The position numbers and the translations under genes were made by a program. This document shows positions 16,345-59,628 of a DNA stretch of 64,000 bases, in pieces. This stretch comes from Mycobacterium florentinum (GTDB lineage: Bacteria; Actinomycetota; Actinomycetes; Mycobacteriales; Mycobacteriaceae): contig NZ_AP022576.1 in the NCBI RefSeq assembly GCF_010730355.1, positions 5,270,001 through 5,334,000 on the forward strand, read 5' to 3'. Each line of letters begins with the position of its first letter. Position 1 is the first letter of the stretch. Below the pieces are notes generated by a model, which was not told the origin of the DNA, searched no databases, and worked only from the letters and a program-made list of their open reading frames with translations.

Positions 16345-16363
16345 TACGGTTACCCATACAGTA
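16345..16363. promoter_or_regulatory. TACTGTA palindrome, copy a
   Basis: TACGGTTACCCATACAGTA matches the consensus TACTGTA-N5-TACAGTA with outer arms TACGGT and ACAGTA. It lies in the 129-bp gap between the minus-strand crotonase/ligase operon (six genes) and the plus-strand thioesterase-crotonase pair, so one site could govern eight genes. The TACTGT and TACAGT halves also resemble -10 hexamers, which would suit a repressor covering the promoter. Confidence 0.6.
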
Positions 16364-16448
16364 GGCAATTCGATTGATACGCTGTATAAGTTATCAAGGA
16401 AACGCAGCCGACGGAACAACCGGGTCGAACCCGGTGAAAGGGGGTCGC

Positions 16449-17135
16449 ATGCCCGATCGCACACCGGTACGCGCCGATGACGCGAAATTCGGCGAGGCGC
16501 CCCTGGCCCAGACCGTGGCGGCCGCCGGTGCGATGCGGCGGCTGAGTTCCCTGCTGCTCTCGCTGGAACATCCGCACCCGACCGTCGATGCGATGCTGGC
16601 GAAGTTCGGCGAGTGGGAAGGCGAACTGGCGTCGGTGGCTTCGCCGGACAGCGCGCCCCGCATCGGCGAGGTCGACGGGGATTCCCCAGACCCGCGCCGG
16701 GTCTATCTCAACCACGCCACCGACATCGGCGCCTACAACCCGTCGTTTCCCGAGTACTCGTTCGATCACCTCGACGCCGACACGGCCACCGGTCGGGTCG
16801 TGTTCCCACTCGTCTACGAAGGGCCGCCGGGACTGGTACACGGCGGCTTCCTGTCCGTGTTTTTCGACTGCGTGATCCAGCATCACAGTTGCGTGATGGG
16901 GCTGTCCGGCAAGACGCGATCCCTACAGGTCACGTTTCGTCGGCCCACGCCGCTGTTGACCGAGCTGCGTTTCGACATCGCCCGGTCGCAGGACGAACGC
17001 GGCATCGCGTCGACGGCGCGGCTGTTGCTCGGCGACGACGTGCTGTGCATCGGCGAGGTCAATACCCTGGCGTCGCAGTCGGACAAGCTGAGCGGATACC
17101 GATTCGGCAGGCGGCGAAAGGAATCCGCGACATGA
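16449..17135 (+). CDS. Hotdog-fold thioesterase-like protein (PaaI group)
   Basis: A 228-residue protein. The C-terminal half has the hotdog fold signature: GPPGLVHGGFLSVFFDCVIQH (the central helix with the HGG turn), then SLQVTFRRPTPLLTELRF. The N-terminal 100 residues are a helical extension. The family hydrolyses acyl-CoA thioesters, releasing CoA. The ATG at 16449 follows GAAAGGGGG. The stop overlaps the next crotonase gene by ATGA. It may recycle CoA or release an intermediate in the pathway. A second relative with the same architecture occurs at 37294-37923. Confidence 0.84.
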   Translation: MPDRTPVRADDAKFGEAPLAQTVAAAGAMRRLSSLLLSLEHPHPTVDAMLAKFGEWEGELASVASPDSAPRIGEVDGDSPDPRRVYLNHATDIGAYNPSFPEYSFDHLDADTATGRVVFPLVYEGPPGLVHGGFLSVFFDCVIQHHSCVMGLSGKTRSLQVTFRRPTPLLTELRFDIARSQDERGIASTARLLLGDDVLCIGEVNTLASQSDKLSGYRFGRRRKESAT

Positions 17136-18016
17136 CTGCCTCGAACGACGATCGCGTGCTTTTCGAGATCGATGCGGGCAAGAGAATCGCGACGATCACG
17201 CTGAACAATCCAAAGCAGCGCAACTCCTACGACGCCGGCATGCGTGAGGCCGTCGGCCGCTGCCTGGATCGGGTGGCCGACGACGACGATCTGACCGTGG
17301 TGCTGCTGCGCGGAGCCGAGGGGGTCTTTTCCACCGGGGCCGACATGAACAACGCATACGGCTGGTATGGCGACAAGTCCAAGGCGCCCGATGCGGCCAA
17401 GCGGCGACCCAGCCAGCGCAGACGACTTACGGTGGACCGCAAGTCATTTAGCTTCTATCACAACTTCATGGGCTTTCCGAAGGTGACGGTGGGGGAGATC
17501 TCCGGCTACGCCCTGGGCGGTGGCTTCGAGATGGCGCTGATGACCGACATCTCGGTGATCGCGCGCGACACGAAGGTCGGCATGCCGGCGACGCGTTTCC
17601 TGGGGCCGGCGCTGGGCAGCCTGCACATGTTCTTCCACCGGTTGGGGCCGGTGCTGGCCCGGCGGCTGCTGTTGACCGGTGACGTGATCGAAGCGGGCGA
17701 GCTCGAACATCTTGGAATCTTCACCGAGACATGCGATCCCGGCGCCGTGACCGCGCGCGCCCGGTACTGGGCCGAGAAGGCGGCGAAGATGCCCGCCGAC
17801 GGGGTCGTCATCGCCAAGGAGGCGTTCCGCCTGGTCGAGCAGAGCCAGGCGTACAACGGTGAGGAAGTCGCGAGCTATCTTTTCCACGCCTTCGGCACCA
17901 ACCTGCAGTTCGGGCCCGACGAGTTCAACTTCGTCAAGACTCGAGCCCAACACGGCACCAAGGAAGCATTCCGGTTACGCGACGAGCACTTCCATGTGCC
18001 GGAACCGGAAGCCTAG
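17132..18016 (+). CDS. Enoyl-CoA hydratase/isomerase (crotonase)
   Basis: A 294-residue crotonase with RIATITLNNPKQRNSYDA, the FSTGADMNNAYG oxyanion segment and ALGGGFEMALMTD, in which the first catalytic Glu is present. The second Glu region reads GMPATRFLGPALGS and lacks a clear Glu. The N-terminal part carries a basic insertion (AKRRPSQRRRLT) between the oxyanion strand and the active-site helix. It is slightly longer than the usual 260 residues because of a C-terminal tail. It is translationally coupled to the thioesterase, and the TetR gene converges 15 bp downstream. Confidence 0.88.
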   Translation: MTASNDDRVLFEIDAGKRIATITLNNPKQRNSYDAGMREAVGRCLDRVADDDDLTVVLLRGAEGVFSTGADMNNAYGWYGDKSKAPDAAKRRPSQRRRLTVDRKSFSFYHNFMGFPKVTVGEISGYALGGGFEMALMTDISVIARDTKVGMPATRFLGPALGSLHMFFHRLGPVLARRLLLTGDVIEAGELEHLGIFTETCDPGAVTARARYWAEKAAKMPADGVVIAKEAFRLVEQSQAYNGEEVASYLFHAFGTNLQFGPDEFNFVKTRAQHGTKEAFRLRDEHFHVPEPEA

Positions 18017-18031
18017 CAACCGGATTCGTGC

Positions 18032-18826
18032 CTAGTGGTTCGCGGTCGTCTTGGGCCGCGAGGATGGTTTCGTCGCCTTGCGCGGCCGCGATGTCGTCGA
18101 CTTGGCTTTTGATCCCTCGTCGATCAACCGGTTGGCGTGGTCGAGGATGCAGGTGAGGCCGTACTCGAAATTGGTTTCATCCGGTGCGCCGATCCGGTGA
18201 CCTATCCGGCTTACCTGGGCGAGCAGCGGGGTCTTTTCGGGGTCGATGGCAACGGCATCCTCGATGGCGCGCGGGCCGACGTCGGAGGACTGGTTCTTTT
18301 CGTAGAGCCGCTGCAGTACCACCGAGCCGCGGACGTGCACCGAAACCGCCGAGTAGGTGTCAAAGGCATCTTCGGGGGTGAGGCCGGCCTCGACCAGGTT
18401 GGAGATCGCCTTCTCCATCTCGAGCGCGCCCAGGCGGGCCGCCTTGGGACTCAGCGCGGCGCGAATCAAAATCAGGTCGCACAGAATTGGGTTGCCCATG
18501 AACGTCTTACGCATCGAGCGCGCGTGGTTGCGCAGGGTTTCGCGCCAGTCGCTGGCTTCGACATAGGGCGTGGCGAACACATACTTGCTCAGGGCGCGGT
18601 CGGTCATCGCGTTGAGCAAGTCGTCCTTCTTGCGGAAATACCAGTAGATGCTGGTAACGCCGACGCCGAGGTGTTTGCCGAGCAGCGGCATGCTGAGGTT
18701 ATCGATCGACACCTGCTCGGCGAGTTCGAATGCGCCACTGATGATGTCGTCGGGGTTGATGGACCCGCGTTCGCGTCGTTGACGCTTATCAGCGGTTGCC
18801 TGCTTTGCCACTACGGGCACCTCCAT
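18032..18826 (-). CDS. TetR-family transcriptional regulator, candidate master regulator of the cluster
   Basis: A 264-residue TetR protein. The helix-turn-helix lies around residues 28-75 (IISGAFELAEQVSIDNLSMPLLGKHLGVGVTSIYWYFRKKDDLLNAM). It is followed by a TetR_C-type helical ligand domain and a basic Ser/Lys/Arg/Pro tail (KSTTSRPRKATKPSSRPK) that could add DNA contacts. The ATG at 18826 is annotated; a GTG at 18811 with GGAGG 7 bases upstream is an equally good start. It is divergent from the SDR-aldolase pair and faces one TACTGTA site plus two other inverted repeats. No specific binding can be proved from sequence. Confidence 0.9.
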   Translation of the reverse strand: MEVPVVAKQATADKRQRRERGSINPDDIISGAFELAEQVSIDNLSMPLLGKHLGVGVTSIYWYFRKKDDLLNAMTDRALSKYVFATPYVEASDWRETLRNHARSMRKTFMGNPILCDLILIRAALSPKAARLGALEMEKAISNLVEAGLTPEDAFDTYSAVSVHVRGSVVLQRLYEKNQSSDVGPRAIEDAVAIDPEKTPLLAQVSRIGHRIGAPDETNFEYGLTCILDHANRLIDEGSKAKSTTSRPRKATKPSSRPKTTANH

Positions 18827-18845
18827 CAAAATGTATCCTGAGCGT

Positions 18846-18972: not shown

Positions 18973-18991
18973 TACTGTAATACCTATCGTA
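18973..18991. promoter_or_regulatory. TACTGTA palindrome, copy b
   Basis: TACTGTAATACCTATCGTA fits TACTGTA-N5-TACAGTA with a perfect left half. It is very similar to the reverse complement of copy c (TACTGTATACCTATCGGTA). It lies between the TetR gene and the SDR gene, followed by an AT-rich TATATA stretch at 19002-19007 that may be the -10 of the plus-strand pair. Confidence 0.6.
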
Positions 18992-19077: not shown

Positions 19078-19875
19078 ATGGATCTAGGCCTGGCGAATGC
19101 GACAGCAGTAGTTGTCGGAGGTAGCCGCGGCATGGGTTTGGCCGCGTCCCGTTGCCTCGCCGAAGACGGTGCCCGGGTGGCGGTGGTCGGCCGAACTCAA
19201 GCCTGCATCGATAGCGCGGTGACCGATCTCACCGGCCGTGGCAGCCCGGACGCCCTGGGATTCGCGGCCGACATCGGTGACGCCGCGGCGGTGGACAAGG
19301 TATTCGCCGAGATCTCCGCCCGATGGAACGGCGAACTCAACGTACTGATCAACACGGTCGGCCCGGGAGCGGCGGGCAGCTTCGAAAACCTCACCGACGA
19401 CCAGTGGCGTCAGTCCGTCGAAGACGGCGTGATGGGGATGGTGCGCTGCGTGCGTTCGGCGCTTCCGCTGCTGCGCAAGGCCCAGTGGGCACGCGTCGTC
19501 AACTTCTCGGCGCATTCGACACAGCGGCAAAGTGTCATGCTGCCCGCCTACACGGCGGCCAAGTCGATGCTGACGAGCGTCTCGAAGAACCTGTCCTTGT
19601 TGCTGGCCAAAGACGAGATCCTGGTCAACGTGGTGTCACCGGGCAGCATCGCGTCCGAGTCGCTCGTCGGCTGGGCCGACTCGGTCGGCGTCGACGGCAA
19701 CGACCCCTATCGCCTGATGGAGGCCATCGACAAGCACTTTGGCCATCCGGCACACATGCCGCGAGCCGGGCTGCCCGAAGAGATCGGGCCCGTTGTCGCG
19801 TTCCTCGCGTCGCGGCGCAACTCCTACATGACCGGCGCCAACATCAACGTCGACGGTGGCTCAGACTTCACCTGA
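19078..19875 (+). CDS. SDR-family oxidoreductase
   Basis: A 265-residue short-chain dehydrogenase. The Rossmann motif is AVVVGGSRGMGLA near residue 15, with the NTVGPG motif at about 90. The active-site Ser is in VVNFSAHS, and the Tyr-Lys pair is in PAYTAAKSM. The C-terminus ends TGANINVDGG. An upstream frame extends to 18934, but the ATG at 19078 gives the normal N-terminus MDLGLANATAVVVGG. It is followed after 34 bp by the DapA-type aldolase, and both probably start from the promoter under copy b of the TACTGTA motif. Likely oxidises a hydroxyl intermediate before aldol cleavage. Confidence 0.9.
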   Translation: MDLGLANATAVVVGGSRGMGLAASRCLAEDGARVAVVGRTQACIDSAVTDLTGRGSPDALGFAADIGDAAAVDKVFAEISARWNGELNVLINTVGPGAAGSFENLTDDQWRQSVEDGVMGMVRCVRSALPLLRKAQWARVVNFSAHSTQRQSVMLPAYTAAKSMLTSVSKNLSLLLAKDEILVNVVSPGSIASESLVGWADSVGVDGNDPYRLMEAIDKHFGHPAHMPRAGLPEEIGPVVAFLASRRNSYMTGANINVDGGSDFT

Positions 19876-19909
19876 TCTCAAATCGCTTGGCCGACAAAAG
19901 GAGTGAACT

Positions 19910-20914
19910 GTGGCGACAGCTGCGCAGGCGCGTACCTGGGCGCGCGGAGCATTGCGGGGAATCGGTGACTCCCTCTATACCCCGTTCTGCGGCACCGACG
20001 GCGATGACATCGACTGGGATGCCTACCGGACGCTGGTGCGTTACTGCGTCGGTGATCTCGGGCACCCGATGTTGTGGTGCACCAGCGGAATCGCCGAGTT
20101 CTGGTCGCTGACTATCGACGAGCGGAAACGCTTGCTGGAAGTGGCGATCGAGGAGGCGCGCGCCATCAACCCCGACGTCGTGATCCAGGCCTGTACGGCC
20201 GCCATGGCGCCCAAGGATTGTCTGGATCTGACGCGGCACGCCCAGCAGGCGGGCGCCGATATCGCCTACATCCAGACGCCGATGATGGAGGCCCACGGGG
20301 GCGAAGGCGTGTTGCGCTTCTTCAAATACATTGCTGCGCGTACGGATATCGCACTGGGGATGTTCAATTCGCCGTCCTCGGGGTATGTGTTGACCCCGGC
20401 CGAAAGCGCCCGGATCTACGACGAGGTACCCGCGGTGTGCGCCACCAAGGAGGGCGCCTTCCGTCCCGAGGCCAGCCGCCGGCTGCACGAATTAGCGCCC
20501 GGCCTGGCGGTATGGGAATGCGACAGGACGGTGTATCGCGCCGGGTGGTTGCGGGCGGGGATCGTCTGCCCGGCCCAATTGGGCACCGCTGGTTATCTTT
20601 TCGAAACGCCGCAGCGGCGGCAGTTCTCCGAGTATTGGGACCTGATACTCAACGACAAGCTGCTCGAGGCAATGGACTACGGGCGCGAATCCGGCATGGA
20701 CCAATTCGATCTGGACATCGGGTCTTGGTGGACCTGCTACCCGGGCCGATCCGATTACTTCACCCACTGGGGCGGGGCGTTCAAGTACGCCGCATCCTTG
20801 TTGGGCCTGCCGATCGGTGACTACCCGCATTCCCGGCCTCCGCAGGCGGAGCTGCCCGCCGAGGCCAAGGCCCAAATGGAGACGGCGTACCGCCGGCTCG
20901 GGCTCATCGACTAG
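19910..20914 (+). CDS. DapA/NAL-superfamily aldolase (hydratase-aldolase-like)
   Basis: A 334-residue TIM-barrel Schiff-base lyase. The imine-forming Lys is in CATKEG at about 185 and the proton-relay Tyr is in the barrel strand before PMM. The start is GTG at 19910, with AAAAGGAG upstream. Within this superfamily its setting among degradative genes argues against lysine biosynthesis and for a retro-aldol step on a side chain, as in hydroxybenzylidenepyruvate hydratase-aldolases. Relatively long C-terminal region (YPGRSDYFTHWGGAFKY) compared with DapA (about 290 residues). It converges with a tiny CsbD-like gene, overlapping by 4 bp. Confidence 0.85.
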   Translation: MATAAQARTWARGALRGIGDSLYTPFCGTDGDDIDWDAYRTLVRYCVGDLGHPMLWCTSGIAEFWSLTIDERKRLLEVAIEEARAINPDVVIQACTAAMAPKDCLDLTRHAQQAGADIAYIQTPMMEAHGGEGVLRFFKYIAARTDIALGMFNSPSSGYVLTPAESARIYDEVPAVCATKEGAFRPEASRRLHELAPGLAVWECDRTVYRAGWLRAGIVCPAQLGTAGYLFETPQRRQFSEYWDLILNDKLLEAMDYGRESGMDQFDLDIGSWWTCYPGRSDYFTHWGGAFKYAASLLGLPIGDYPHSRPPQAELPAEAKAQMETAYRRLGLID

Positions 20915-21057
20915 TCAAAGCCCTTGCGCAGCGCCTCGGCCCTGTCCTGCTGCGCTTGCCCCTGCCGGATCCAGTCGTTGCGGCCCGCGACGGTGCCGAC
21001 CGCTTCCGTGGCCTTGCCGACGACGTCGATGACGACGCCCTTGACGGTGTCGAGCAT
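20911..21057 (-). CDS. Small CsbD-like / microaggregate-binding-type protein
   Basis: A 48-residue protein too short for most gene callers. It begins MLDTVKGVVIDVVGKATEAV, continues with GTVAGRNDWIRQGQAQQDRA and ends RKGFD. This is the amphipathic, Lys/Ala/Gly-rich pattern of CsbD-like stress proteins. The ATG at 21057 is preceded by GGGAGGGAA about 8 bases upstream, a strong ribosome site. The stop overlaps the end of the aldolase gene convergently. A general stress role is inferred from the family only. Confidence 0.78.
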   Translation of the reverse strand: MLDTVKGVVIDVVGKATEAVGTVAGRNDWIRQGQAQQDRAEALRKGFD

Positions 21058-21358
21058 TGGCGATTCCCTCCCGCTGCCTGGTGGCTGCCTCCACTACCTT
21101 TCCTTCCCTGCTCCCCCGGCCTTCCCTGCCGGCCGACGCGGGAAACCACGATTGGACCGTGGCCCTCGCCACAGTGTGCGACGTCGACCCGACTCCGGTG
21201 GCCTCCCGGACTGCGGCTCATATCGGTGAAATTCGCCGTTTGGCCTGGGTTCACGGTGCCGCGGGGACGGTTGTGGAATGCAGTACCGATAGGTATACAG
21301 TATGGGTACAAAGCCCACCGAAATCCGTAGTCAAAAGCATGAGGAGGTGCCGCGGAAG
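21058..21358. other. Intergenic region, 301 bp, divergent promoters
   Basis: Lies between the small CsbD-like gene (minus) and the crotonase at 21359 (plus). It holds the ribosome site of the small gene at 21061-21073, a pyrimidine-rich stretch at 21080-21130, copy c of the TACTGTA motif at 21284-21302, and the GAGGAGG ribosome site at 21341-21347. An in-frame ATG at 21302 extends the crotonase frame, but the strong ribosome site favours 21359. No other gene is seen. Confidence 0.6.
21284..21302. promoter_or_regulatory. TACTGTA palindrome, copy c
   Basis: TACCGATAGGTATACAGTA has a perfect right half. Its reverse complement resembles copy b over nearly its whole length. It sits about 57 bp upstream of the start of the six-gene operon 21359-28220. 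The TATACAGT segment could double as the -10 of that operon. Confidence 0.6.
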
Positions 21359-22216
21359 ATGTCCGGCAGCGACGGTGCCTCCCAGGACCCCCAAGCTGAC
21401 GACGCGGTGCTCTACGAGGCCACGGAGACCGGCGTCGCAATCCTGACGTTCAACCGGCCGGATCGCCTCAACGCGTGGGGTCCCGACATCGCGGCCGGGT
21501 TCTACGCCGCCGTCGACCGCGCCGAATCCGATCCCGCCGTCCGGGTGATCGTGCTGACCGGTCGGGGCCGAGGGTTCTGCGCCGGTGCGTATTTGGGCGC
21601 GCCGGGCGGGGCGGCCAAGGTCGGCGAATCGATGGAGCAGGCCGGGCAGACGAATCTCGCCGACCTGGTCGGTGAACGACCGCCGCATTTTGTCACCACG
21701 CTGCGCAAGCCGGTCATCGCGGCCATCAACGGTGCGTGCGTCGGCATCGGCCTGACCCAGGCGCTGATGTGCGACGTCCGGTTCGCCGCCGCGGGGGCCA
21801 AGTTCGGCGCCGTGTTCGCTCGCCGGGGCCTGATCGCCGAATTCGGTATCTCGTGGATCCTTCCCCGGTTGACCAGCATGGGCATCGCGCTCGATCTGCT
21901 GCTGAGTGCACGCACCTTTCTTGCCGAGGAGGCCGCCGAGCTCGGGCTGGTCAAGGAGGTCGTGGCGGCCGACGACCTGATGAAGCGTGTGCTGGAGTAC
22001 GCCGAGGACATGGCGGCCAATTGCTCGCCGGCATCGATGGCGGTGATCAAACGGCAGGTCTACGGCGACGACATCCGCGATGTCGTGGACGCGAACAGCC
22101 GGTCCGAAGTCCTGGTGCACGAGGCGATGTCGCGGCCGGACGTCATCGAAGGGATCACCAGCTTCCTCGAAAAGCGGCCGCCGCAGTTTCCGTCGCTGCG
22201 CCCAACAGACGGCTAG
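21359..22216 (+). CDS. Enoyl-CoA hydratase/isomerase (crotonase), atypical
   Basis: A 285-residue crotonase with GVAILTFNRPDRLNAW. The oxyanion segment FCAGAYLG has Tyr where the usual Asp follows CAGA. GIGLTQALMCD lacks the first catalytic Glu, while GLIAEFGISW retains a Glu near the second position, a pattern closer to isomerase-type members. The start is ATG at 21359, 11 bases after GAGGAGG. It heads an operon with amidohydrolase, ligase, amidohydrolase and two acyl-CoA dehydrogenase genes, all closely spaced on the plus strand. Confidence 0.88.
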   Translation: MSGSDGASQDPQADDAVLYEATETGVAILTFNRPDRLNAWGPDIAAGFYAAVDRAESDPAVRVIVLTGRGRGFCAGAYLGAPGGAAKVGESMEQAGQTNLADLVGERPPHFVTTLRKPVIAAINGACVGIGLTQALMCDVRFAAAGAKFGAVFARRGLIAEFGISWILPRLTSMGIALDLLLSARTFLAEEAAELGLVKEVVAADDLMKRVLEYAEDMAANCSPASMAVIKRQVYGDDIRDVVDANSRSEVLVHEAMSRPDVIEGITSFLEKRPPQFPSLRPTDG

Positions 22217-22235
22217 TACCTCCGAAGGGATGATC

Positions 22236-23438
22236 ATGAACAGCTTGAGCTACAAGGCGATTGACGTCGACAACCACTACTACGAACCGCTGGACGCCTT
22301 CACCCGGCACCTCGACAAGGCGTTCAAGACGCGCGGCGTGCAGATGGTCACCCAAGGCAAGCGCACCTTGGCCGTGATCGGGGGCCGGGTCAACCACTTC
22401 GTCCCCAACCCCACCTTCGATCCGATCATCGTGCCGGGCTGCCTGGATCTGTTGTTCCGCGGCGAGATTCCCGAAGGCGTCGACCCGGCCTCGCTGATGA
22501 AGGTCGAGCGGCTCACCGAGCACCCCGAGTACCAGAATCGCGACGCCCGCATCACGGTGATGGACACCCAGGACATCGAAACGGTGTTCATGCTGCCGAC
22601 GTTCGGGTGTGGGGTCGAGGAGGCACTCAAGCACGACATCGACGCGACGATGGCGTCGGTGCACGCCTTCAACCTGTGGCTCGACGAGGACTGGGGTTTC
22701 GACCGTCCCGACCGCCGCATCATCGCAGCGCCGATCATCTCGCTGGCCGATCCGGCCAAGGCGCTCGAAGAGGTCGACTTCGTGTTGGCCCGCGGCGCCA
22801 AGCTGGTGCTGGTGCGTCCGGCGCCGGTGCCGGGCTTGGTCAAGCCGCGGTCCTTGGGTCATCCCAGCCACGACCCCGTCTGGGCCCGGCTGGCGGAGGC
22901 GGGGGTACCGGTGGGATTCCACCTGTCCGACAGCGGTTATCTGCACATCGCGGCGGCGTGGGGCGGCAAGGCGACCTTCGAAGGGTTCGGCGCCAAGGAT
23001 CCGCTGGACAACGTGCTGCTCGATGACCGCGCGATCCACGACACGATGGCCTCGATGATCGTGCATGGTGTGTTCACCCGCCATCCGAAACTGAAGGCGG
23101 TCAGCATCGAAAACGGTTCCTACTTCGTGCATCGGCTCGTCAAGCGCCTCAAGAAGGCGGCCAACACCCAGCCGCGTGACTTCCCCGAGGATCCGGTCGA
23201 GCAGCTACGCAACAACGTGTGGATCGCCCCGTACTATGAGGACGACCTGCCGGAGCTGGCCGAGGTCATCGGCGTCGACAAGATCCTGTTCGGCTCCGAC
23301 TGGCCACACGGTGAAGGCCTCGAGTCGCCGGTGTCGTTCACCGGGGAACTCACCGCCTTCAGCGAGTCGGATATCCGAAAGATCATGCGCGACAACGCGT
23401 TAGAGCTTCTCGGTGCCAAAGCCGCAGTGGCGGCTTAG
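22236..23438 (+). CDS. Amidohydrolase-2 family metal-dependent hydrolase
   Basis: A 400-residue TIM-barrel protein of the amidohydrolase_2 (ACMSD-like) family. Candidate metal ligands are His in IDVDNHYYEP, His in VGFHLSDSG at about 230, and Asp in FGSDWPHGEG at about 350. In ACMSD relatives these bind Zn and support decarboxylation or hydrolysis; ring-cleavage hydrolases also belong here. The ATG at 22236 has GAAGGG 6 bases upstream; an in-frame ATG at 22230 overlaps that site. It shares NHF/DFIPNPTF and C-terminal features with the amidohydrolase at 28318, so the two are paralogues. Confidence 0.88.
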   Translation: MNSLSYKAIDVDNHYYEPLDAFTRHLDKAFKTRGVQMVTQGKRTLAVIGGRVNHFVPNPTFDPIIVPGCLDLLFRGEIPEGVDPASLMKVERLTEHPEYQNRDARITVMDTQDIETVFMLPTFGCGVEEALKHDIDATMASVHAFNLWLDEDWGFDRPDRRIIAAPIISLADPAKALEEVDFVLARGAKLVLVRPAPVPGLVKPRSLGHPSHDPVWARLAEAGVPVGFHLSDSGYLHIAAAWGGKATFEGFGAKDPLDNVLLDDRAIHDTMASMIVHGVFTRHPKLKAVSIENGSYFVHRLVKRLKKAANTQPRDFPEDPVEQLRNNVWIAPYYEDDLPELAEVIGVDKILFGSDWPHGEGLESPVSFTGELTAFSESDIRKIMRDNALELLGAKAAVAA

Positions 23439-23450
23439 GCGGCCCGGCCA

Positions 23451-25933: not shown

Positions 25934-25953
25934 GATACGACAGGAGCACTGAG

Positions 25954-50926: not shown

Positions 50927-50979
50927 CCCCGGCAGCGCGCGTGGTGGCGGCCGGGTGTGACGAGATGACCCCGCGCTTC

Positions 50980-50985
50980 TACCTT
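50980..50985 (+). promoter_or_regulatory. -10 element of the PucR-type gene (possible leaderless start)
   Basis: TACCTT ends 7 bases before the ATG at 50993, so the transcript would begin at or next to the start codon. There is no ribosome-binding sequence in front of this ATG, which fits a leaderless mRNA. It lies 54 bp after the mdlC stop. Confidence 0.42.
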
Positions 50986-50992
50986 TATTGGC

Positions 50993-52171: not shown

Positions 52172-52209
52172 AAAGGCGATCACTACACTCCGCGGCGGAG
52201 GACTACGCA

Positions 52210-53049
52210 ATGACGCATCGGACGATTGTCATCACGGGTGGCAGCGACGGCATCGGTGCCGCGGCGGCTCGCCGGTTGGGCGGGGGCGGTGATGACGTTG
52301 TGGTGGTGGGACGTTCGGAGAGCAAAACCGCCGCGGTGGCGGCGGAATTCGACGCCGACTATTTCGTAGCCGACTTCGGCGACCTGGCCCAGGTGCGAGC
52401 CCTGGCAGACAAGATTCGCTCCAACTACCCCCGCATCGACGTTCTGCTCAACAACGCCGGCGGCATGAGCACCAAGATCCAGCTGACCTCCGACGGCTAT
52501 GAACACACCTATCAGGTCAATTATTTGTCGCCGTTTCTGCTGACCACGCGGCTACTGCCGGTGCTCCTGGATTCGCGCGCCACTGTCGTCAACACGACCA
52601 GCTCATCGCACAAGCTGGTCCGCCGGGCCACCGTCGACGACCTGGAGAACACCGCCCGCCGCGGCGCCGGCACCGCCTACGCGTTGTCCAAGCTGGCCAT
52701 CGTGTTGTTCACCCGGGAACTACACCGGCGCCACCACGCGGGCGGATTGTCCGCTGCAACAGTTCATCCCGGCTACGTCAACTCCAACTTCGGCCGCGCA
52801 TCGGGATCGCGGTTCCTGGTCTTCATGCAGCAGTACACGCCGCAGGCGCGGTTCACCGCGAGCGTGGACGAAGGTGCCGACCAGCTGGTGTGGCTCGCGT
52901 CCACCGCCCCCGGTGTCGAATGGACGCCCGGGGAGTACTACGTGAAGCGCAAGATCGCCAAACCCGGTCGCCTGGCGATCGACCCGCGGCTTGCCGGCGA
53001 GCTGTGGGAGCGCACTGCGAGCAAGCTCGGCTTATTCGATACCGATTAG
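52210..53049 (+). CDS. SDR-family oxidoreductase (retinol-dehydrogenase-like)
   Basis: A 279-residue SDR with TIVITGGSDGIGAAAA, LLNNAGGMST, NTTSSSHK (Ser) and AYALSKLA (Tyr-Lys). The N-SYLSPFLLT region, the insertion before the Tyr and the extended C-terminus resemble retinol-dehydrogenase/WW-domain-oxidoreductase-type SDRs. ATG at 52210, 9 bases after GGAGG. The gene ends inside the tandem operator of the TetR gene downstream, so it and the TetR gene are transcribed in the same direction with the operator overlapping its 3' end. Substrate unknown. Confidence 0.89.
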   Translation: MTHRTIVITGGSDGIGAAAARRLGGGGDDVVVVGRSESKTAAVAAEFDADYFVADFGDLAQVRALADKIRSNYPRIDVLLNNAGGMSTKIQLTSDGYEHTYQVNYLSPFLLTTRLLPVLLDSRATVVNTTSSSHKLVRRATVDDLENTARRGAGTAYALSKLAIVLFTRELHRRHHAGGLSAATVHPGYVNSNFGRASGSRFLVFMQQYTPQARFTASVDEGADQLVWLASTAPGVEWTPGEYYVKRKIAKPGRLAIDPRLAGELWERTASKLGLFDTD

Positions 53050-53075
53050 TATCGAATCGATACCGGGGAGTATGC
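53037..53075. promoter_or_regulatory. Tandem TetR operator, two 18-bp inverted repeats, with -10 TATGCT
   Basis: CGATAC-N6-GTATCG at 53037-53054 and CGATAC-N6-GTATGC at 53058-53075 are two inverted repeats in direct succession, 21 bp centre to centre (two helical turns). The second overlaps TATGCT (53071-53076), whose transcript start would fall on the ATG of the TetR gene at 53084. Cooperative autorepression by two dimers is inferred. Confidence 0.72.
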
Positions 53076-53083
53076 TACTGGAC

Positions 53084-53698
53084 ATGTCGCCGGTCAAGCC
53101 GCATCGAACCCGCCCGACCCGCGGCGAGGTGCGCGACCGGATCCTGGATGCGGCCTCGAAAGTGTTCGCCGCCGAAGGATTCGCCGGTGCCACCATCGAT
53201 GCGATCGGCCAAGCCGCGGGCTTCACCAAGGGCGCGGTCTACTCGAACTTCGAGTCCAAGGACGAACTGTTCCTGGCCCTGGTCGACCGCGAGTTCGAGC
53301 TGCGCGGCGAGCAGATCGCCACAGTGCTGGACAGCAGCGGCGGTGACACCGGCGTGGCCGCACACCAGTTGAGCCGGTCGGTGCTCGACTCGGTTCGCGA
53401 TCATTCCGACTATTACGTGTTGTTGGTTGAGTACTGGCTGCGTGCACAGCGCGATCCGCAGCTTCGCGAGCGACTGATCGAACGCCGTCGCGCCGCCGCC
53501 GACCAAGCGGTGCACATCGTCAAATCGACCGACACCGGGCCGTCGGACCGGCGGTTGGCCGACCTCGCCCAGCTCGTTGTCACGGTCAATTTGGGCGTCG
53601 CGATGGAAGAGGTCTTGCGCCCCGGAACGATAAACCCCGACCTGCTCACGCAACTGATTACCGCGCTGCTGGAATCGGTTCCGGATTCCGGCAAGTAG
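53084..53698 (+). CDS. TetR-family regulator of the YhgE/Pip ABC module
   Basis: A 204-residue TetR repressor. Helix-turn-helix at about residues 15-60 (RDRILDAASKVFAAEGFAGATIDAIG, then GFTKGAVYSNFESKDELF). C-terminal effector domain of the AefR/TetR_C type. The ATG at 53084 is favoured because it coincides with the predicted transcript start; an in-frame ATG at 53072 lies within the operator. It is followed 12 bp later by the ABC ATPase and YhgE/Pip genes, which it probably represses from the tandem operator. Confidence 0.91.
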   Translation: MSPVKPHRTRPTRGEVRDRILDAASKVFAAEGFAGATIDAIGQAAGFTKGAVYSNFESKDELFLALVDREFELRGEQIATVLDSSGGDTGVAAHQLSRSVLDSVRDHSDYYVLLVEYWLRAQRDPQLRERLIERRRAAADQAVHIVKSTDTGPSDRRLADLAQLVVTVNLGVAMEEVLRPGTINPDLLTQLITALLESVPDSGK

Positions 53699-53710
53699 GG
53701 AGAGCCCCAC

Positions 53711-54388
53711 ATGGACACAACAGACGAGTCGGACGTCGGTCCGCCGGTGATCACCGCCACCGGATTAGGGGTCGACGGCGAGCACGGGCCGTTGTTCTCG
53801 GGTGTCGATCTCACGCTTACGCCGGGCTTTCACGCGATTCAGATGCCCGGCGGACCGGGACAGACCACCCTGCTGTTGACCCTTGCGGGGCGCTTCAAGG
53901 CCACCCACGGATCGCTGAGGGTGCTCGGTGAAACGACGCCGCATGCGATTCGCCGACACTGCTCGATCGCGGCCTTCGACGACATCGACGACCTGGAGGA
54001 GTCGGTGACCGTCGAGACGGTGCTCGCCGAGCAACGCCGGTGGTTGGCGCCGTGGTATTCACTGGTGCCGCTGCAAGCCGGTCAGGCCGAGCTGGCAGAG
54101 GTTTTCGGCGAAACGCCGCTGCCGCCATCGGGTGCATACATCGTCGAATTGTCCGACCTGGAACTGTTTTTGCTGCGCATCACGCTGGCCGTGCTGTCGA
54201 ACCGACCGGTTCTGGTGGTCGGTGACCTCGAGCAGGTTCGTGACAATTCCCGGCGAGTGATCGCGGTGGAGCGGCTCGGCGCGATCGCGAAGCAACGCAC
54301 CGTCGTCGTCGGTGTCACCAACCCGCTCGGCACGGACGCGCCCGAGCACGAACTTCACGATCACCGCATCCTGACCGAAGGGGATTGA
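53711..54388 (+). CDS. Degenerate ABC-type ATP-binding protein
   Basis: A 225-residue ABC nucleotide-binding domain whose key motifs are decayed. The Walker A reads PGGPGQTTLL, with Gln in place of the catalytic Lys. The signature is ELSDLELF rather than LSGGQ. Walker B reads VLVVGDLE and lacks the usual DE pair, with Glu only shifted. It probably cannot hydrolyse ATP normally and may be a structural or regulatory partner of the YhgE/Pip membrane protein, whose gene overlaps its stop by TTGA. Length and gene pairing match actinobacterial YhgE-associated ABC proteins. Confidence 0.85.
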   Translation: MDTTDESDVGPPVITATGLGVDGEHGPLFSGVDLTLTPGFHAIQMPGGPGQTTLLLTLAGRFKATHGSLRVLGETTPHAIRRHCSIAAFDDIDDLEESVTVETVLAEQRRWLAPWYSLVPLQAGQAELAEVFGETPLPPSGAYIVELSDLELFLLRITLAVLSNRPVLVVGDLEQVRDNSRRVIAVERLGAIAKQRTVVVGVTNPLGTDAPEHELHDHRILTEGD

Positions 54389-54390
54389 CG

Positions 54391-56295
54391 ATGCTGGCTG
54401 GACTCGCATTCGGCTCGGAGATAAAACGTTTCGGTCGCAATCGATTGACGCGCGTGGCCATCGTCGTGCTGATGCTGCTGCCGTTGGTGTATGGGGCGCT
54501 GTACCTGTGGGCGTTCTGGGATCCCTTCGGCCACACCAACAAAATGCCGGTAGCGCTGGTCAACTCGGACCGTGGTGCCATGCTGTCCGGGGAGCAGTTC
54601 AACGCCGGCGCGGAGATCGCCAAAAGCCTGACCGCGGACGGCGGCTTGGACTGGCACGTCGTGGACCTGTCGGAGGCGCGTAGCGGGGTCGACCACGGCA
54701 AGTACTACTTCATGGTCGAATTGCCGCCCGACTTCAGCGCGGCGATCGCGTCGCCGGTGACCGGGCAACCCAAGAAGGCCAGCCTAATCGCCTTCTACAA
54801 CGACGCCAACAACTACATCTCGACGAGTATCGGTCGCACCGCCATCAGCCAAGTGCTCAACGCCGTCTCCAGCCGGATCTCCGGACAGGCGGTCAATCAC
54901 ATGCTTTCGGTGGTGATTTCGTCCGGAGCGGGGATCAAGCAGGCCGCCGACGGGGCGGCTCGACTCGATGACGGTGCCGGTCAGCTGTTGTCCGGTCTGG
55001 ACGCCGCGCGGTCCGGTTCGGCGAAGCTCGCCGCGGGTGCCGGGCAGCTCTCGGACGGAATCAACCAGGCCACCGACCCACTGCTTGCGATAGCCAACGC
55101 GCTGTCGCAAATCAGCGGCGATACGCAGCAATTGCAACAGGGTGTGAGTGCGCTACAGCAGGCCAACGATCAGATCGGTACCATCGCTACGGCGCAGGAT
55201 GCCGCCGCAAACTCGCTTTCCTCGGTGATCGATCAGCTCTCGGCGCGACAGGATCCGCTGGCGAACAACCTTCGTGGCGTTCAGGATCAGCTTCGTGGAC
55301 ACCAGTTCACGCCGCAGATCCGCCAACAGCTCACCGACGCCCAAAACGCCGCGATCGCGATGACCACTTCGCTGCGAGCGCCCGGCAGCCCGCTGGGATC
55401 GGCTCTCGACCGAGTCGGCAATAGGGGCCAAGAGCTGACGAGCAAGCTCACCCAACTCCGCGACGGAGCCCAGCAGCTCGCCGCCGGTAACGCCGAATTA
55501 GCCAGCGGGATAGCGAAACTCGACGACGGAGCCCAGCAGCTCAAGGCGGGATCGGCCGAGCTTTCGACCAAGCTTGCCGACGGGGCCAAGCAGTTGCCCA
55601 ACTGGACAACCCAGCAAAAGGATGCGGTCGCGGAGACCATCGGCGGCCCGGTGCAACTCGAAGCCTCACATGAGAACGCCGCGCCCAACTTCGGCACTGG
55701 GATGGCGCCGTTCTTCCTGACGCTGGCCTTGTTCTTCGGCGCGTTGGTGCTGTGGATGGTGTTGCGGCCCTTGCAGAGCCGCCCGATCGCCGCAGAGGTG
55801 CTCGCGTTCCGCGTGGTGCTGGCCAGCTACCTGCCGGCGGCCGCGATCGCGCTATTCCAGGCGGTCATTCTGTACTGCGTGGTTCGATTCGCCCTCGGTA
55901 TGCACGCGGTCCACCCCGTGGCGATGTTGGGGTTCATGGTGCTCATCTCCGCTGCATTCGTGGCCGCGACGCAGGCGATCAACGCGCTTGTCGGTCCGGC
56001 GGTGGGCCGCGTGCTGATCATGGCCCTGCTGATGCTGCAGCTCGTCAGCGCCGGCGGGATGTACCCGGTGGAGACCACGTCACGGCCCTTCCAGATCTTG
56101 CACCGCTTCGACCCGATGACCTACGGCGTCAACGGGCTCCGGCAGCTCATCCTCGGCGGCATCGACGCCCGGCTCTGGCAGGCGATCGTCGTGCTGGTAG
56201 TGATAACGGCTGTCGCACTGGCGATCTCATCGGTGTCCGCACGGCGAGACCGCACCTGGAATGTCAGCAGACTGATCCCGGCGATCAAGATGTAG
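54391..56295 (+). CDS. YhgE/Pip-domain membrane protein (phage-infection-protein type)
   Basis: A 634-residue membrane protein. One N-terminal transmembrane helix (about 23-43, VAIVVLMLLPLVYGALYLW), then a large extracellular coiled-coil region (about 150-430) with repeats of the form DGAxQL/LxxGxxxL. The C-terminal block has about five transmembrane helices (about 440-625). The ATG at 54391 has GAAGGGG 7 bases upstream. This matches YhgE/Pip proteins linked to ABC-2-type export. With the degenerate ATPase it forms a possible exporter or cell-envelope factor under TetR control. Confidence 0.92.
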   Translation: MLAGLAFGSEIKRFGRNRLTRVAIVVLMLLPLVYGALYLWAFWDPFGHTNKMPVALVNSDRGAMLSGEQFNAGAEIAKSLTADGGLDWHVVDLSEARSGVDHGKYYFMVELPPDFSAAIASPVTGQPKKASLIAFYNDANNYISTSIGRTAISQVLNAVSSRISGQAVNHMLSVVISSGAGIKQAADGAARLDDGAGQLLSGLDAARSGSAKLAAGAGQLSDGINQATDPLLAIANALSQISGDTQQLQQGVSALQQANDQIGTIATAQDAAANSLSSVIDQLSARQDPLANNLRGVQDQLRGHQFTPQIRQQLTDAQNAAIAMTTSLRAPGSPLGSALDRVGNRGQELTSKLTQLRDGAQQLAAGNAELASGIAKLDDGAQQLKAGSAELSTKLADGAKQLPNWTTQQKDAVAETIGGPVQLEASHENAAPNFGTGMAPFFLTLALFFGALVLWMVLRPLQSRPIAAEVLAFRVVLASYLPAAAIALFQAVILYCVVRFALGMHAVHPVAMLGFMVLISAAFVAATQAINALVGPAVGRVLIMALLMLQLVSAGGMYPVETTSRPFQILHRFDPMTYGVNGLRQLILGGIDARLWQAIVVLVVITAVALAISSVSARRDRTWNVSRLIPAIKM

Positions 56296-56326
56296 GAAAA
56301 GCGACTCCGCGATCGAGAGGAAGCCC

Positions 56327-57085
56327 ATGAGCACGGCACTGGTAACCGGTGGCGCGTCCGGCATCGGGCGCGAAGTCGCCGAACGGCTGCGCGACACGGG
56401 ACACGATGTCGTGGTGTGGGACCTGTCGGACGCCGATATCGCGTGCGATATCAGCGATCCCGAGGCGGTGTCGGCAGCAATGGAGCGAACCGTGCGTGAG
56501 CATGGGGTGCCCACCCGGGTGGTGACATGTGCCGCGGTCGGAGCGGCGGGCGTGCTGCTCAAGCAGTCGCCCGCGGAATGGGAACGAGTGCTGGGCGTGA
56601 ACCTCACCGGCACCTGGCTGACGATCCGCGCCGCGGCGCAGGCCATGATCGACGCCGGGGTGGGCGGTTCGATCGTCGCGGTGTCCAGCATCAGCGGCTC
56701 GATCGCCGATCGCGACATGGGTGCCTACTGCGTGTCGAAGGCCGGCGTGGACATGCTGGTCAAGGTCGCCGCCGTGGAGTGGGGGACGCACGGCATCCGG
56801 GTGAACGCCGTCGGGCCCGGTGTCACCCGGACGCCGATGCTGGCCAACCCGGAAGCGCTGCCCGGCTGGGTGGAAGGCATGACCGAGCGGACCGCGCTCG
56901 GTGGCCTGGGACAAGCCGCCGACGTGGCCGCCGCCATTGCGGGTGTGCTCGAATTACCCTGGGTGACTGGCCAAGTCGTGCATGCCGATGGCGGCCTGGC
57001 CCTACACAGTCCGATCGACGCCTACGGCCAGTTGCAGCGGCTGATGGCACACAAGAAAACCGCGGGTGACGACCGGCCGGGCTAG
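56327..57085 (+). CDS. SDR-family oxidoreductase (FabG-like)
   Basis: A 252-residue SDR with ALVTGGASGIGREVA, VSSISGSIADRDMGAYCVSKAG (Ser-Tyr-Lys) and VNAVGPGVTRTPML, ending with VHADGGLAL. The NNAG segment is replaced by CAAVG. The ATG at 56327 follows GAGAGGAAGC. It stands between the YhgE/Pip gene (32 bp upstream) and the convergent alcohol dehydrogenase (5 bp downstream), so its own promoter is unclear; it may be read through from the TetR module. Confidence 0.9.
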   Translation: MSTALVTGGASGIGREVAERLRDTGHDVVVWDLSDADIACDISDPEAVSAAMERTVREHGVPTRVVTCAAVGAAGVLLKQSPAEWERVLGVNLTGTWLTIRAAAQAMIDAGVGGSIVAVSSISGSIADRDMGAYCVSKAGVDMLVKVAAVEWGTHGIRVNAVGPGVTRTPMLANPEALPGWVEGMTERTALGGLGQAADVAAAIAGVLELPWVTGQVVHADGGLALHSPIDAYGQLQRLMAHKKTAGDDRPG

Positions 57086-57090: not shown

Positions 57091-58248
57091 CTACTCGATC
57101 CCGAAATCGATGACGCCCCGGACGATCTTGCCGTTCAGCAGGTCGTCGTAAGCGTCGTTGATGTCGTCGAGCCGGTACCGCCGGGTGATCATCTCGTCGA
57201 GCTGGAGCTGCCCGGTCTGGTAGAGCCGGGCCAGCCGGAAGACGTCGGCCTTCGGGTTGCACGAGCCGAATACGGTGCCGGCCAGCGACTTGTTCGACAG
57301 GATGAAGTCCTGCAGATCGATCTTGACCGAGCTGGTCAACTGCGAGGTCATGCCGGTCAGCACGCACGTCCCGCCCTTGCGGGTGAGTCGCACCGCGTCG
57401 CGGACGTCGTCGGGAGTGATCAGCGACGGCGAGACCACGACGGCGTCGGCCATCACTCCGTAGCTCAGGTCGCGCACCAGATCCATCGCCTCGACCGCGG
57501 TTGCGGCGGTGTGGGTGGCGCCGAACTGCAACGCCGACTTCTGTTTGAACGCCACCGGATCCACCGCGACGATGTGTGCGGCACCGCCGATCCGGGCACC
57601 CTGAATCGCGCCCGTACCGATTCCACCGACACCGATCACGACCACGGTGTCACCCGGGCGCATATTGGAACGGTTGGCCACCGAACCGAATCCGGTCGGT
57701 ATCGCGCAGGACAGCAGTGCGCTGGGCACCAGCGGCAGGTGGGGTTCGATCTTCACCAGCGAATTCGTCGACACCACAGTATGTTTGGAAAACGCGCCCA
57801 CCTTGGCCAAGTGGCCCAGCGGCTTGCCCTCGGCGGTGTGATGGCGGTAGGTGCCGTCGGTGGGCATGCCCGGCGTCAGCACGCCGGCGCCCATGTCGCA
57901 GATGTACTCCATACCGCTGGCGCACCAGCGGCACTGCCCGCACACCGCGACGAACGACATCACCACGTGGTCACCCGGCACGAATTCCGTTACGCCGTCC
58001 CCGACTTCACGCACGACGCCCGAGCCCTCGTGACCGCCGATCATCGGGAACATGGTGGGCAGCCCGAGCGAGCGCAGCACCTCGTTGGGTGCCGACATGT
58101 CCCCCTTGAGGATGTGGTCGTCGGAGTGACACATGCCGGCCGCGGCCATCTCGACCAGCACCTCGCCCGCCCGGGGCGCGTCCAGTTCGAAATCCTCGAC
58201 AGACCACGGGCCGCCGACATCATGCAGGATCGCCGCGCGGCTTTTCAT
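57091..58248 (-). CDS. Zinc-dependent alcohol dehydrogenase (NDMA-type, Rxyl_3153-like)
   Basis: A 385-residue class III-like zinc alcohol dehydrogenase. Catalytic Zn ligands are Cys in GMCHSDDH (about 39) and His-Glu in GGHEGSG (about 69-70). Structural Zn cysteines lie in CGQCRWCASGMEYIC (about 103-115). Coenzyme motif VIGVGGIGTGAIQ is at about 200. Mycobacterial relatives use tightly bound NAD with an artificial or mycofactocin-linked acceptor. The ATG overlaps the P450 stop (ATGA), so it is coupled to that hydroxylase and likely oxidises the resulting alcohol. Confidence 0.92.
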   Translation of the reverse strand: MKSRAAILHDVGGPWSVEDFELDAPRAGEVLVEMAAAGMCHSDDHILKGDMSAPNEVLRSLGLPTMFPMIGGHEGSGVVREVGDGVTEFVPGDHVVMSFVAVCGQCRWCASGMEYICDMGAGVLTPGMPTDGTYRHHTAEGKPLGHLAKVGAFSKHTVVSTNSLVKIEPHLPLVPSALLSCAIPTGFGSVANRSNMRPGDTVVVIGVGGIGTGAIQGARIGGAAHIVAVDPVAFKQKSALQFGATHTAATAVEAMDLVRDLSYGVMADAVVVSPSLITPDDVRDAVRLTRKGGTCVLTGMTSQLTSSVKIDLQDFILSNKSLAGTVFGSCNPKADVFRLARLYQTGQLQLDEMITRRYRLDDINDAYDDLLNGKIVRGVIDFGIE

Positions 58249-59471
58249 GCGGCGGGGGTGAACGTGACGGGAAGCTTGTTGGGCGACCGGAAAGTGAGGC
58301 CGATGATCCTGGACTCCTCGCCGGTGCCGTCGTCGGGAACGAACGCGAGGTTCGACACCCGGTCGAGCAGGCTGTTCAACATCACCCGGGTTTCCAGCCG
58401 GGCCAAATGCATCCCGAGGCACATGTGGATCCCGCCGGCGAATGCGATGTGGGCCTGGCGCGGCCGGCGGATGTCGAAGCGATTCGCGTCGGGCCAACGA
58501 CTTTCGTCCCGGTTGGCCGAGCCCATGCACATGTCGATCTGCGCTTCGGCGGGAATTGTCTTGCCGCCGATCTCGACCTCTTCGGTGGTGGTGCGCATGA
58601 CCATGGTCAGCGGGGTCTCGACCCGCAGGCCTTCCTCGATGGCGGCCGGGATCAGGGACCGGTCCTGCCGGACCATCTCCAACTGCTCGGGGTGGGTCAG
58701 CAGCAGGTACAACAGGTTGCCCGACGAACGGTAGGTCGTCTCCAGTCCGGCGGGCAGCAGCAAGCGCAAGAACGCGATGATCGCGTCGTCGGTGAGTTTC
58801 TCGCCGTCGATCTCGGCGGCGACCAGGTCGCCGATGATGTCGTTGGTCAGCTTGCGGCGCCGCTGCTCGACCTGCTCGAGGAAGTAGCCGTGCAACTCGG
58901 TGGCGGCGTTGAGGCCGGCGATGATGTCGGTCGGAATCGAGATGAGGTCAAGCGACAGCCGCCGGAACATGTCGAGATCCTCCGGGGGCAGCCCGAGCAG
59001 CACCGAGATGATCCGGGTCGGGAACTCGAACGTCAGCGCCTTCACCAGATCGGCGTGACAGTCCTGCTTGATTTCGTCGATCAGCTGATCGCACACCGGC
59101 CCGATGACCGACGGCTCCCAGCGCTCCAGCGCGGTGGCCCGAAAAGCCTTGGCCACCAGGCTGCGGTGGTCGTGGTGTTCCTTGCCGCCCATCGCCAGGA
59201 TGGTGTGCCCCATGACCAGACCGATGGTCTTCTCGTAGGCGGCCGATGTGAAGACCCGATCGTCGCGGAAGGCTTGGAACACACCGTCATAGCCGAACAG
59301 CACCCACTCGTCGTTCGGCCGCAGCTCCTCCGGCATCTGGGAGTGATCCCCCAGTGCGCCGTGCCAGACCGGGTCGGTACGCCGCATGTATTCGAAGAAC
59401 GGATAGGGGCTGGTCTCACCGGTGAAATCGAGGGTGACGGGCTGGCCGACGGGGTCGGTGCTTAACGGCAT
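58245..59471 (-). CDS. Cytochrome P450
   Basis: A 408-residue P450 with AGLETTYRS in the I helix, ExxR in EEGLRVETP and heme loop FAGGIHMCLG (axial Cys near 358). It is a paralogue of the P450 at 31984: both share RLLLPAGLETTYRSSGN, LLTHPEQ and GSANRDE. The ATG at 59471 has GAGGAGC upstream. It heads the two-gene unit with the alcohol dehydrogenase and is divergent from the Rieske ferredoxin, with two palindromes in the 193-bp gap. Probable first hydroxylase on a related substrate. Confidence 0.93.
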   Translation of the reverse strand: MPLSTDPVGQPVTLDFTGETSPYPFFEYMRRTDPVWHGALGDHSQMPEELRPNDEWVLFGYDGVFQAFRDDRVFTSAAYEKTIGLVMGHTILAMGGKEHHDHRSLVAKAFRATALERWEPSVIGPVCDQLIDEIKQDCHADLVKALTFEFPTRIISVLLGLPPEDLDMFRRLSLDLISIPTDIIAGLNAATELHGYFLEQVEQRRRKLTNDIIGDLVAAEIDGEKLTDDAIIAFLRLLLPAGLETTYRSSGNLLYLLLTHPEQLEMVRQDRSLIPAAIEEGLRVETPLTMVMRTTTEEVEIGGKTIPAEAQIDMCMGSANRDESRWPDANRFDIRRPRQAHIAFAGGIHMCLGMHLARLETRVMLNSLLDRVSNLAFVPDDGTGEESRIIGLTFRSPNKLPVTFTPAA

Positions 59472-59563
59472 CAGCGCTCCTCCTGAGCAATCGGTAAGGC
59501 CGTTGCCGCGGACCGGTCTTGACCGCCCCGGCGTCTTCGGCGGGTGTGTTCGAGCGGAATGTC

Positions 59564-59583
59564 GCTATCATAGTATAAATAGC
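59564..59583. promoter_or_regulatory. Inverted repeat GCTAT-N10-ATAGC in the P450/Rieske gap
   Basis: Five-base arms flank CATAGTATAA. The core TATACTATG (minus strand) resembles the TATACTGTA of copy e, so this may be a degenerate second copy of the regulon motif or an unrelated promoter element serving the P450. Only symmetry and position support it. Confidence 0.38.
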
Positions 59584-59609
59584 AACGAAGCCCAACGGCT
59601 TGTGGTGGT

Positions 59610-59628
59610 TACCGTAACGGGCTCAGTA
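59610..59628. promoter_or_regulatory. TACTGTA palindrome, copy g
   Basis: TACCGTAACGGGCTCAGTA, located between the P450-alcohol dehydrogenase pair (minus) and the Rieske-amidohydrolase genes (plus). Extended to 20 bp it is identical to minus-strand copy e at 18 positions. Both face a Rieske-domain gene. The CAGTAT end could be part of the plus-strand -10. Confidence 0.65.

Follow-up and report, generated by a model that had tools for sequence, protein, structure and literature searches.

What controls a large catabolic gene cluster in Mycobacterium florentinum? The question is raised by a 64,000-bp stretch of its genome (contig NZ_AP022576.1, positions 5,270,001 to 5,334,000; hereafter "the window", with coordinates counted from its first base), in which the 19-bp palindrome TACTGTA-N5-TACAGTA recurs at seven intergenic regions. 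Comparison of sequences across genomes indicates that these palindromes are very probably the operators of an autoregulated TetR-family repressor encoded at 18032 to 18829, which would govern up to about 38 catabolic genes and a few distant ones in a layout like that of KstR, with another operator. The sites themselves are real, conserved, intergenic and linked to the tetR gene across genomes. The sites and the regulator gene are as follows (mismatches are to the pattern; counts are of 80 named Mycobacterium loci or of 15 cluster regions, the window included).

16345 to 16363: candidate operator copy, 2 mismatches, in a conserved block extending to about 16390; near-identical in 70 of 80 loci and in 10 of 15 regions.
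18032 to 18829, minus strand: TetR-family regulator (TetR_N and TetR_C_1), proposed cognate repressor, likely start ATG 18826; from Pfam, Foldseek and co-occurrence with the motif.
18973 to 18991: candidate operator copy, 2 mismatches, between tetR (minus) and a short-chain dehydrogenase/reductase (SDR) gene (plus), the proposed autoregulation site; 78 of 80 loci.
21284 to 21302: candidate operator copy, 3 mismatches, 5' of an enoyl-CoA hydratase/FadD/acyl-CoA dehydrogenase run whose first gene probably starts at ATG 21359; 70 of 80 loci.
33239 to 33257: candidate operator copy, between a P450 (minus) and an aldehyde dehydrogenase gene (plus); found with its flanks in 8 of 15 regions.
39583 to 39613: copies at 39583 to 39601 (3 mismatches) and 39595 to 39613 (at most 3) overlapping in a common central TACAGTA, giving three units at a 12-bp period, between a Rieske oxygenase (minus) and a SnoaL/Baeyer-Villiger-type monooxygenase run (plus); found with flanks in 10 of 15 regions.
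45869 to 45899: copies at 45869 to 45887 (2 mismatches) and 45881 to 45899 overlapping in a common TACTGTA, ending on the A of ATG 45899, the likely start of an F420-type LLM oxidoreductase; found with flanks in 10 of 15 regions.
59610 to 59628: candidate operator copy, 3 mismatches, between a P450 (minus) and an amidohydrolase run (plus); found with flanks in 5 of 15 regions.

We searched for the 14 fixed letters of the 19-bp pattern, allowing up to one, two, three or four mismatches depending on the test. Each half is a TACNGTA unit, identical on both strands except for its middle base. With up to three mismatches the window contains eight matches, compared with 0.06 expected from shuffled sequences, in agreement with the view in a preliminary description of the locus that random occurrence is unlikely. 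The seven stretches listed there are all present, and the copy at 33239, described as a perfect palindrome, has no mismatch. The copy at 45881 to 45899 exists as described, with four mismatches, and is better read at 45869 to 45887. Exact TACTGTA occurs three times and exact TACAGTA four times in the 64,000 bases; all seven occurrences fall inside sites, spread over six of the seven regions.

Genes occupy about 96% of the window, yet all eight matches at up to three mismatches are intergenic. At up to four mismatches 10 of 11 are, the exception lying within a gene at 25875, and the motif is not common in the window's coding DNA. The gene list behind these counts was trimmed by hand, and its start at 16511 is later than the in-frame ATG at 16449, which leaves the counts unaffected. 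Given the likely start codons and a 48-codon open reading frame (ORF) at 20911 to 21057 (minus strand), divergent genes flank all seven site regions, rather than the five first proposed. The sites lie 12 to 227 bp from the likely start codons, several of them within about 60 bp. As in a local regulon, one candidate operator pattern recurs at promoters of genes with related functions, its seven intergenic regions being bordered by genes for CoA-ester, P450 and oxygenase enzymes. The same-strand runs leading away from the sites hold up to about 38 genes, close to the "about 40 of 62" originally estimated; this figure is an upper bound that includes small ORFs.

The domains and predicted fold of the protein encoded at 18032 to 18829 identify it as a TetR-family regulator, with an N-terminal helix-turn-helix and an all-helical C-terminal ligand domain. 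TetR_N (PF00440) scores 45.5 bits against a cut-off of 24 and TetR_C_1 (PF02909) 43.2 bits against a cut-off of 21, and the AlphaFold model is all helical, with a mean pLDDT of 79. Among the Foldseek matches listed (50 rows), the hits are Tet repressors of classes B and D or engineered variants throughout, with E values of 2e-7 to 4e-6, TM-scores by target of 0.65 to 0.81 and identities of 19 to 26%.

Conservation was examined in the 80 named loci, some of which end before a site, a site being called as the best match within four differences, and in the fetched cluster regions of 14 further relatives. The left end of the fetched regions is about 4 kb from tetR, and two of these 14 regions fall short of 60 kb; genes below 14 kb, which lie beyond them, were compared in the 67 named loci counted as full-length, those exceeding 20 kb. 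Among named species, the regulator gene has its closest relatives, at 95 to 97% identity, in M. triplex, M. ahvazicum and M. genavense. Across the 80 loci the sites form islands in which the inner letters are nearly fixed and the flanks drift. These loci contain 232 pattern matches at up to three mismatches, compared with 123 for the pattern read backwards; in the cluster regions of the 14 relatives the corresponding numbers are 109 and 20. The prospect that related species would lack the sites is thus not borne out in either set. Two more distant genomes (G022 and G039) carry perfect palindromes with other centres in the cluster region, and selection therefore seems to act on the halves rather than on the centre. 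Separately, a conserved site, TCCGGTATCTCTTACSGTA, lies at the far side of the relatives' clusters (G046 region position 39653; a group of 9 members); it has no match in the window at up to three mismatches.

The motif also travels with the regulator gene. Orthologs were defined by a score above 300 bits, initially among 100 relatives including the genome itself, 60 of the same genus and 40 outside it. An ortholog is present in 45 of the 60 genus members and in none of the 40 others, and the palindrome (up to two mismatches) occurs in 40 of the 45 genomes with an ortholog, in 1 of the 15 genus members without one and in 0 of 40 outside the genus. In a larger sample of 198 Mycobacterium genomes (60 from the first set and 138 new), analyzed at up to one mismatch, 152 have the ortholog and 46 do not (20 listed and 26 by difference). 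The palindrome is found in 123 of the 152 compared with 1 of the 46 (Fisher 1.4e-23), and in the 138 new genomes alone in 86 of 107 compared with 1 of 31; the backward pattern at the same limit matches in 2 of 198. Hence the presence of the TetR gene, which the preliminary description had put forward as the regulator, predicts the motif. Among the matches listed, which come from 33 genomes, 68 of 75 palindrome places are within 60 kb of tetR, five are on other contigs and two are far away.

The regulator's own promoter supplies a more direct link. Of the best 30 among the 45 orthologs, the own copy included, 28 have a site in the 350 bp upstream, compared with 1 of 30 in a downstream control, and six further orthologs of 67 to 77% identity have the upstream site in every case. 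Retention of the operator pattern in this promoter is what autoregulation would predict. Helix-turn-helix residues 46 to 75 are identical in 34 of 36 sequences, the own one included, with a single residue changed in L019 and L035, and the protein outside this element varies. The own genome has one such regulator gene, the next TetR match being 24% identical with 43 bits. Paralogs were compared by recognition helix. No site occurs in the 350 bp upstream of any of the five with a YWHV helix. Of the six paralogs from the same genus whose helix is YWYFR, five have a site within about 1.3 kb upstream: L201 at 56 bp, and L209 to L212 as exact unit pairs at about 1.3 kb. Alignment A1 holds 19 of 25 sequences and leaves out L201, which has a stop, L199, L200, L205, L209 and L211.

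Related genes offer further observations. Upstream of two homologs from another family of the order (L206 and L207; identities of 38 and 41%), ACCGGTAAAGACTACCGGA is found at -19 and -41; the N5 gap separating GTA from TAC is kept and the outer letters are changed. A third homolog from their genus has only a weaker word at -83. A second TetR paralog, 52 to 58% identical, lies about 18 to 22 kb from the first in G020, G021, G034, G039 and G049, with perfect or one-mismatch palindromes nearby, and its recognition helix is near-identical in G020, G034 and G039, the three read closely.

In the whole 6.22-Mb genome the pattern occurs at 25 places at up to three mismatches, eight of them in the window, which is 1% of the genome (binomial 1e-10, with overlapping sites not independent). 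Among the places examined outside the window, adjoining genes include an enoyl-CoA hydratase (1420544), an SDR/DAP-DH pair (312964), a P450 (4521856), a divergent alcohol dehydrogenase/thiolase pair (6138279), a kinase-like gene (5264232) and an SDR (4972590); places L011, L012 and L014 are at least partly intergenic. At 925421 to 925439 of the genome a site-like CACCGTATTCAGTACGGTA probably occupies the promoter of a different TetR_C_1-type regulator, whose gene diverges from an SDR gene; as this regulator has another helix, the sequence may be a distinct operator alike in shape.

Several findings weigh against the proposed regulator and its operators. Read backwards, the pattern occurs at 130 places genome-wide at up to three mismatches, far above 25, and the pattern alone at this limit is therefore not specific genome-wide; we think that codon words inflate this control, and it is the local concentration and the stricter pattern that carry weight. 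Outside the window there are 17 places at this limit, of which 13 were examined and three (L008, L010 and L013) fall within genes. No palindrome at up to one mismatch was found in 29 of the 152 ortholog-bearing genomes, and two genomes have a palindrome without the ortholog, G155 at up to one mismatch and G054 at up to two. The genomes share ancestry, so that Fisher values overstate the number of independent events, and, as motif and regulator sit in one cluster, loss of the whole cluster would also produce their co-occurrence; among these comparisons, only the upstream site and the recognition helix point to the protein itself. Here too there are exceptions. Of the two orthologs without an upstream site, one lies where its contig ends and the other (L035) does not. 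Among the YWYFR paralogs, L205 lacks a site, and at a distance of 1.3 kb four of the five sites may be those of an adjacent promoter; among the YWHV paralogs, L203 carries a poor match (3 mismatches) likewise about 1.3 kb upstream. Finally, a consensus sigma-70 scan of 45780 to 45960, around the site at 45869, found no promoter-like site at the tool's threshold; by hand, a -10 element TAAAGT could be read at 45886 to 45891, with a leaderless start at 45899.

One other account is that TACTGTA and TACAGTA serve divergent promoters as -10 elements (TANNNT) and are symmetric by chance. TACTGT and TACAGT are compatible with the loose actinobacterial -10 pattern, and the 12 to 227 bp that separate the sites from likely start codons would suit such elements. 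Both halves are conserved together with their fixed 12-bp spacing, however, and the strict palindrome is all but restricted to genomes that carry one regulator, unlike a general -10 element. Because of these two features we reject -10 elements as the whole explanation, and we give this account hardly any chance. It is also quite improbable that the sites belong to another regulator, be it the window's TetR at 8583, GntR at 3882, PucR at 50993 or an unlinked protein, with the TetR at 18032 a mere neighbour. Linkage alone is no proof of binding, and a few sites are far from the tetR gene. Against this, PucR has no match (at least 60% identity over half the length) in the fetched regions of the 14 relatives, and the 8583 TetR, which is near the locus edge and perhaps cut off in some, is matched in 1 of 67 full-length named loci; the sites are present nonetheless in both cases, and a site lies directly 5' of the 18032 tetR in 28 of the 30 best orthologs. 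If this protein is the regulator, it might still be an activator, or a dual regulator that needs the sites for induction. TetR-family activators exist, and a third unit at 12-bp spacing, described below, may mean several bound dimers. We regard this as unlikely: several sites are no more than about 60 bp from likely start codons, a position expected of a repressor, and KstR and KstR2 of the same genus are both repressors, as described in the excerpts cited (PMC1995591, PMC3068626).

Overall, these results support the regulator first proposed for the sites, and from them we infer that the TetR protein binds the palindromes directly, represses rather than activates, and is released by a ligand. 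By analogy with KstR and KstR2, a predicted TetR dimer would, without ligand, sit on each TACNGTA-N5-TACNGTA site across the promoter and shut off the divergent genes on both sides, tetR itself included. A pathway metabolite, perhaps an acyl-CoA intermediate, would enter the C-terminal pocket; the ligand-filled protein would then leave the DNA and the cluster would be expressed.

The operators may be more elaborate than single palindromes. The pooled cluster regions contain 10 distinct exact unit pairs no more than 60 bp apart, and 8 of them are spaced by 12 bp. A third unit-like word exactly 12 bp past the pair averages 2.07 of 6 matches, compared with 1.35 at 32 other offsets (standard deviation 0.11, highest 1.58), in 42 groups of sites with 84 flanks, in which overlapping sites were left unmerged and the grouping is crude. 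An earlier test, with 23 groups and one locus divided between two of them, also gave an excess at 12 bp. The clearest cases in the window are 39583 to 39613, 45869 to 45899, 33227 to 33257 and the run after 16345. A three-unit pattern is found in 73 of 198 genomes by a search that presupposes the third unit and whose backward control also matches in some genomes. A third unit, weaker, thus appears often to follow 12 bp further on, with possible room for more than one dimer. We tentatively suggest, as a possibility short of an even chance, that this is a third large KstR-like mycobacterial catabolic regulon whose operators are 12-bp-phased TACNGTA arrays, often of three units. Two or more dimers of the TetR protein might then occupy overlapping registers, making control graded and cooperative; in some species the cluster contains a duplicate of the regulator gene with a near-identical recognition helix, and the two repressors may share arrays.

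The genes in the same-strand runs from the sites include enoyl-CoA hydratases, acyl-CoA synthetases and dehydrogenases, a thiolase-like gene, a CoA-transferase, three P450s, a Rieske oxygenase (distantly KshA-like), a Baeyer-Villiger-type monooxygenase, two F420-type oxidoreductases, an NDMA-type alcohol dehydrogenase and amidohydrolases. They are arranged as follows.

14644 to 16319, minus strand: two enoyl-CoA hydratase-family genes facing the site at 16345; the run may extend to 9292 (three AMP-binding genes); five genes matched in 59 to 60 of the 67 full-length named loci.
16374 to 18016, plus strand: ORF 16374 to 17135 (no Pfam hit; in-frame ATG 16449) and an enoyl-CoA hydratase gene starting near 17132; from family searches.
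19078 to 20914, plus strand: SDR oxidoreductase (likely start 19078) and DHDPS/HpaI-like gene, divergent from tetR.
21359 to 28220, plus strand: enoyl-CoA hydratase, amidohydrolase, acyl-CoA synthetase, amidohydrolase and two acyl-CoA dehydrogenases.
28318 to 33189, minus strand: amidohydrolase, thiolase-like gene, CoA-transferase and cytochrome P450.
33299 to 34798, plus strand: aldehyde dehydrogenase family gene.
34795 to 39556, minus strand: Rieske oxygenase (distant KshA relative), acyl-CoA synthetase and SDR.
39653 to 44319, plus strand: SnoaL-like gene, Baeyer-Villiger-type monooxygenase, esterase-like gene and F420-type LLM oxidoreductase.
44316 to 45812, minus strand: acyl-CoA carboxylase carboxyltransferase-type gene.
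45899 to 48153, plus strand: LLM oxidoreductase and cytochrome P450, nearest solved structure P450terp.
57091 to 59471, minus strand: cytochrome P450 and NDMA-dependent alcohol dehydrogenase.
59817 to 63406, plus strand: two amidohydrolases and alpha/beta hydrolase.

The 48-codon ORF that adjoins the site at 21284 begins MLDTVKGVVIDVVGKATEAVG... and looks CsbD-like by eye. The gene content of the cluster would suit a pathway in which a bulky hydrophobic compound, for example a terpenoid or steroid-like molecule, is degraded by oxidation and by steps of beta-oxidation type; neither the sequence families nor the literature searched settled the substrate. From about 48 to 57 kb (48164 to 57085) the window has no operator site. 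The thiamine pyrophosphate (TPP)-enzyme gene (49313) and the PucR-type gene (50993) have no match in the fetched cluster regions of the 14 relatives and the ABC-2 gene (54385) is matched in only 2 of 14, so that at least part of this stretch looks inserted; two SDR genes are matched in 9 and 6 of the 14, possibly as paralogs. The description of the cluster as one metabolic unit under one regulator is supported in linking one regulator to the motif, but "one metabolic unit" is too strong, because this stretch lacks a site and similar sites occur at some promoters elsewhere in the genome.

These results name a probable regulator and operator for a large catabolic cluster, and 152 of the 198 Mycobacterium genomes sampled have an ortholog of the regulator. 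The operator offers a direct route to the pathway genes genome by genome, distant members included, and, through a simple binding assay, to the inducing compound and thereby the substrate. A description of the regulon was not found in the literature searched, as judged by title and abstract start, most subscription journals being outside it.

The closest solved folds are the Tet repressors of classes B and D, which have the same kind of Pfam domains; the regulator differs from them in its sequence (19 to 26% identity among the matches listed) and in lying beside catabolic genes. The operators of EthR and Mce3R are described, in the excerpt cited, as larger, more complex and in multiple copies (PMC4482099), and the 12-bp-phased units here may likewise be multiple copies, a likeness of description. 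The nearest parallels in layout are KstR, of mycobacterial lipid and cholesterol catabolism, and KstR2. KstR and KstR2 sites were rejected as the identity of the palindromes, the KstR and KstR2 consensus sequences being absent from the window in exact form, the only form sought, in line with the earlier remark that the motif is unlike either. According to the excerpts cited, KstR is an autorepressing TetR-family protein with palindrome copies in intergenic regions beside lipid-metabolism genes, overlapping promoter elements, and a 14-bp consensus, TnnAACnnGTTnnA (PMC1995591), and KstR2, also of the TetR family, governs a local regulon of 15 genes from three sites with the motif AnCAAGnnCTTGnT, between divergent genes near its own gene (PMC3068626). 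The present system resembles KstR in that one TetR-family regulator is associated with palindromes between catabolic genes, its own promoter included, and differs in the operator, which is the 19-bp TACTGTA-N5-TACAGTA instead of the 14-bp TnnAACnnGTTnnA. With KstR2 it shares sites between divergent genes near the regulator's own gene, whereas its reach would be wider, with seven regions and up to about 38 genes compared with three sites and 15 genes.

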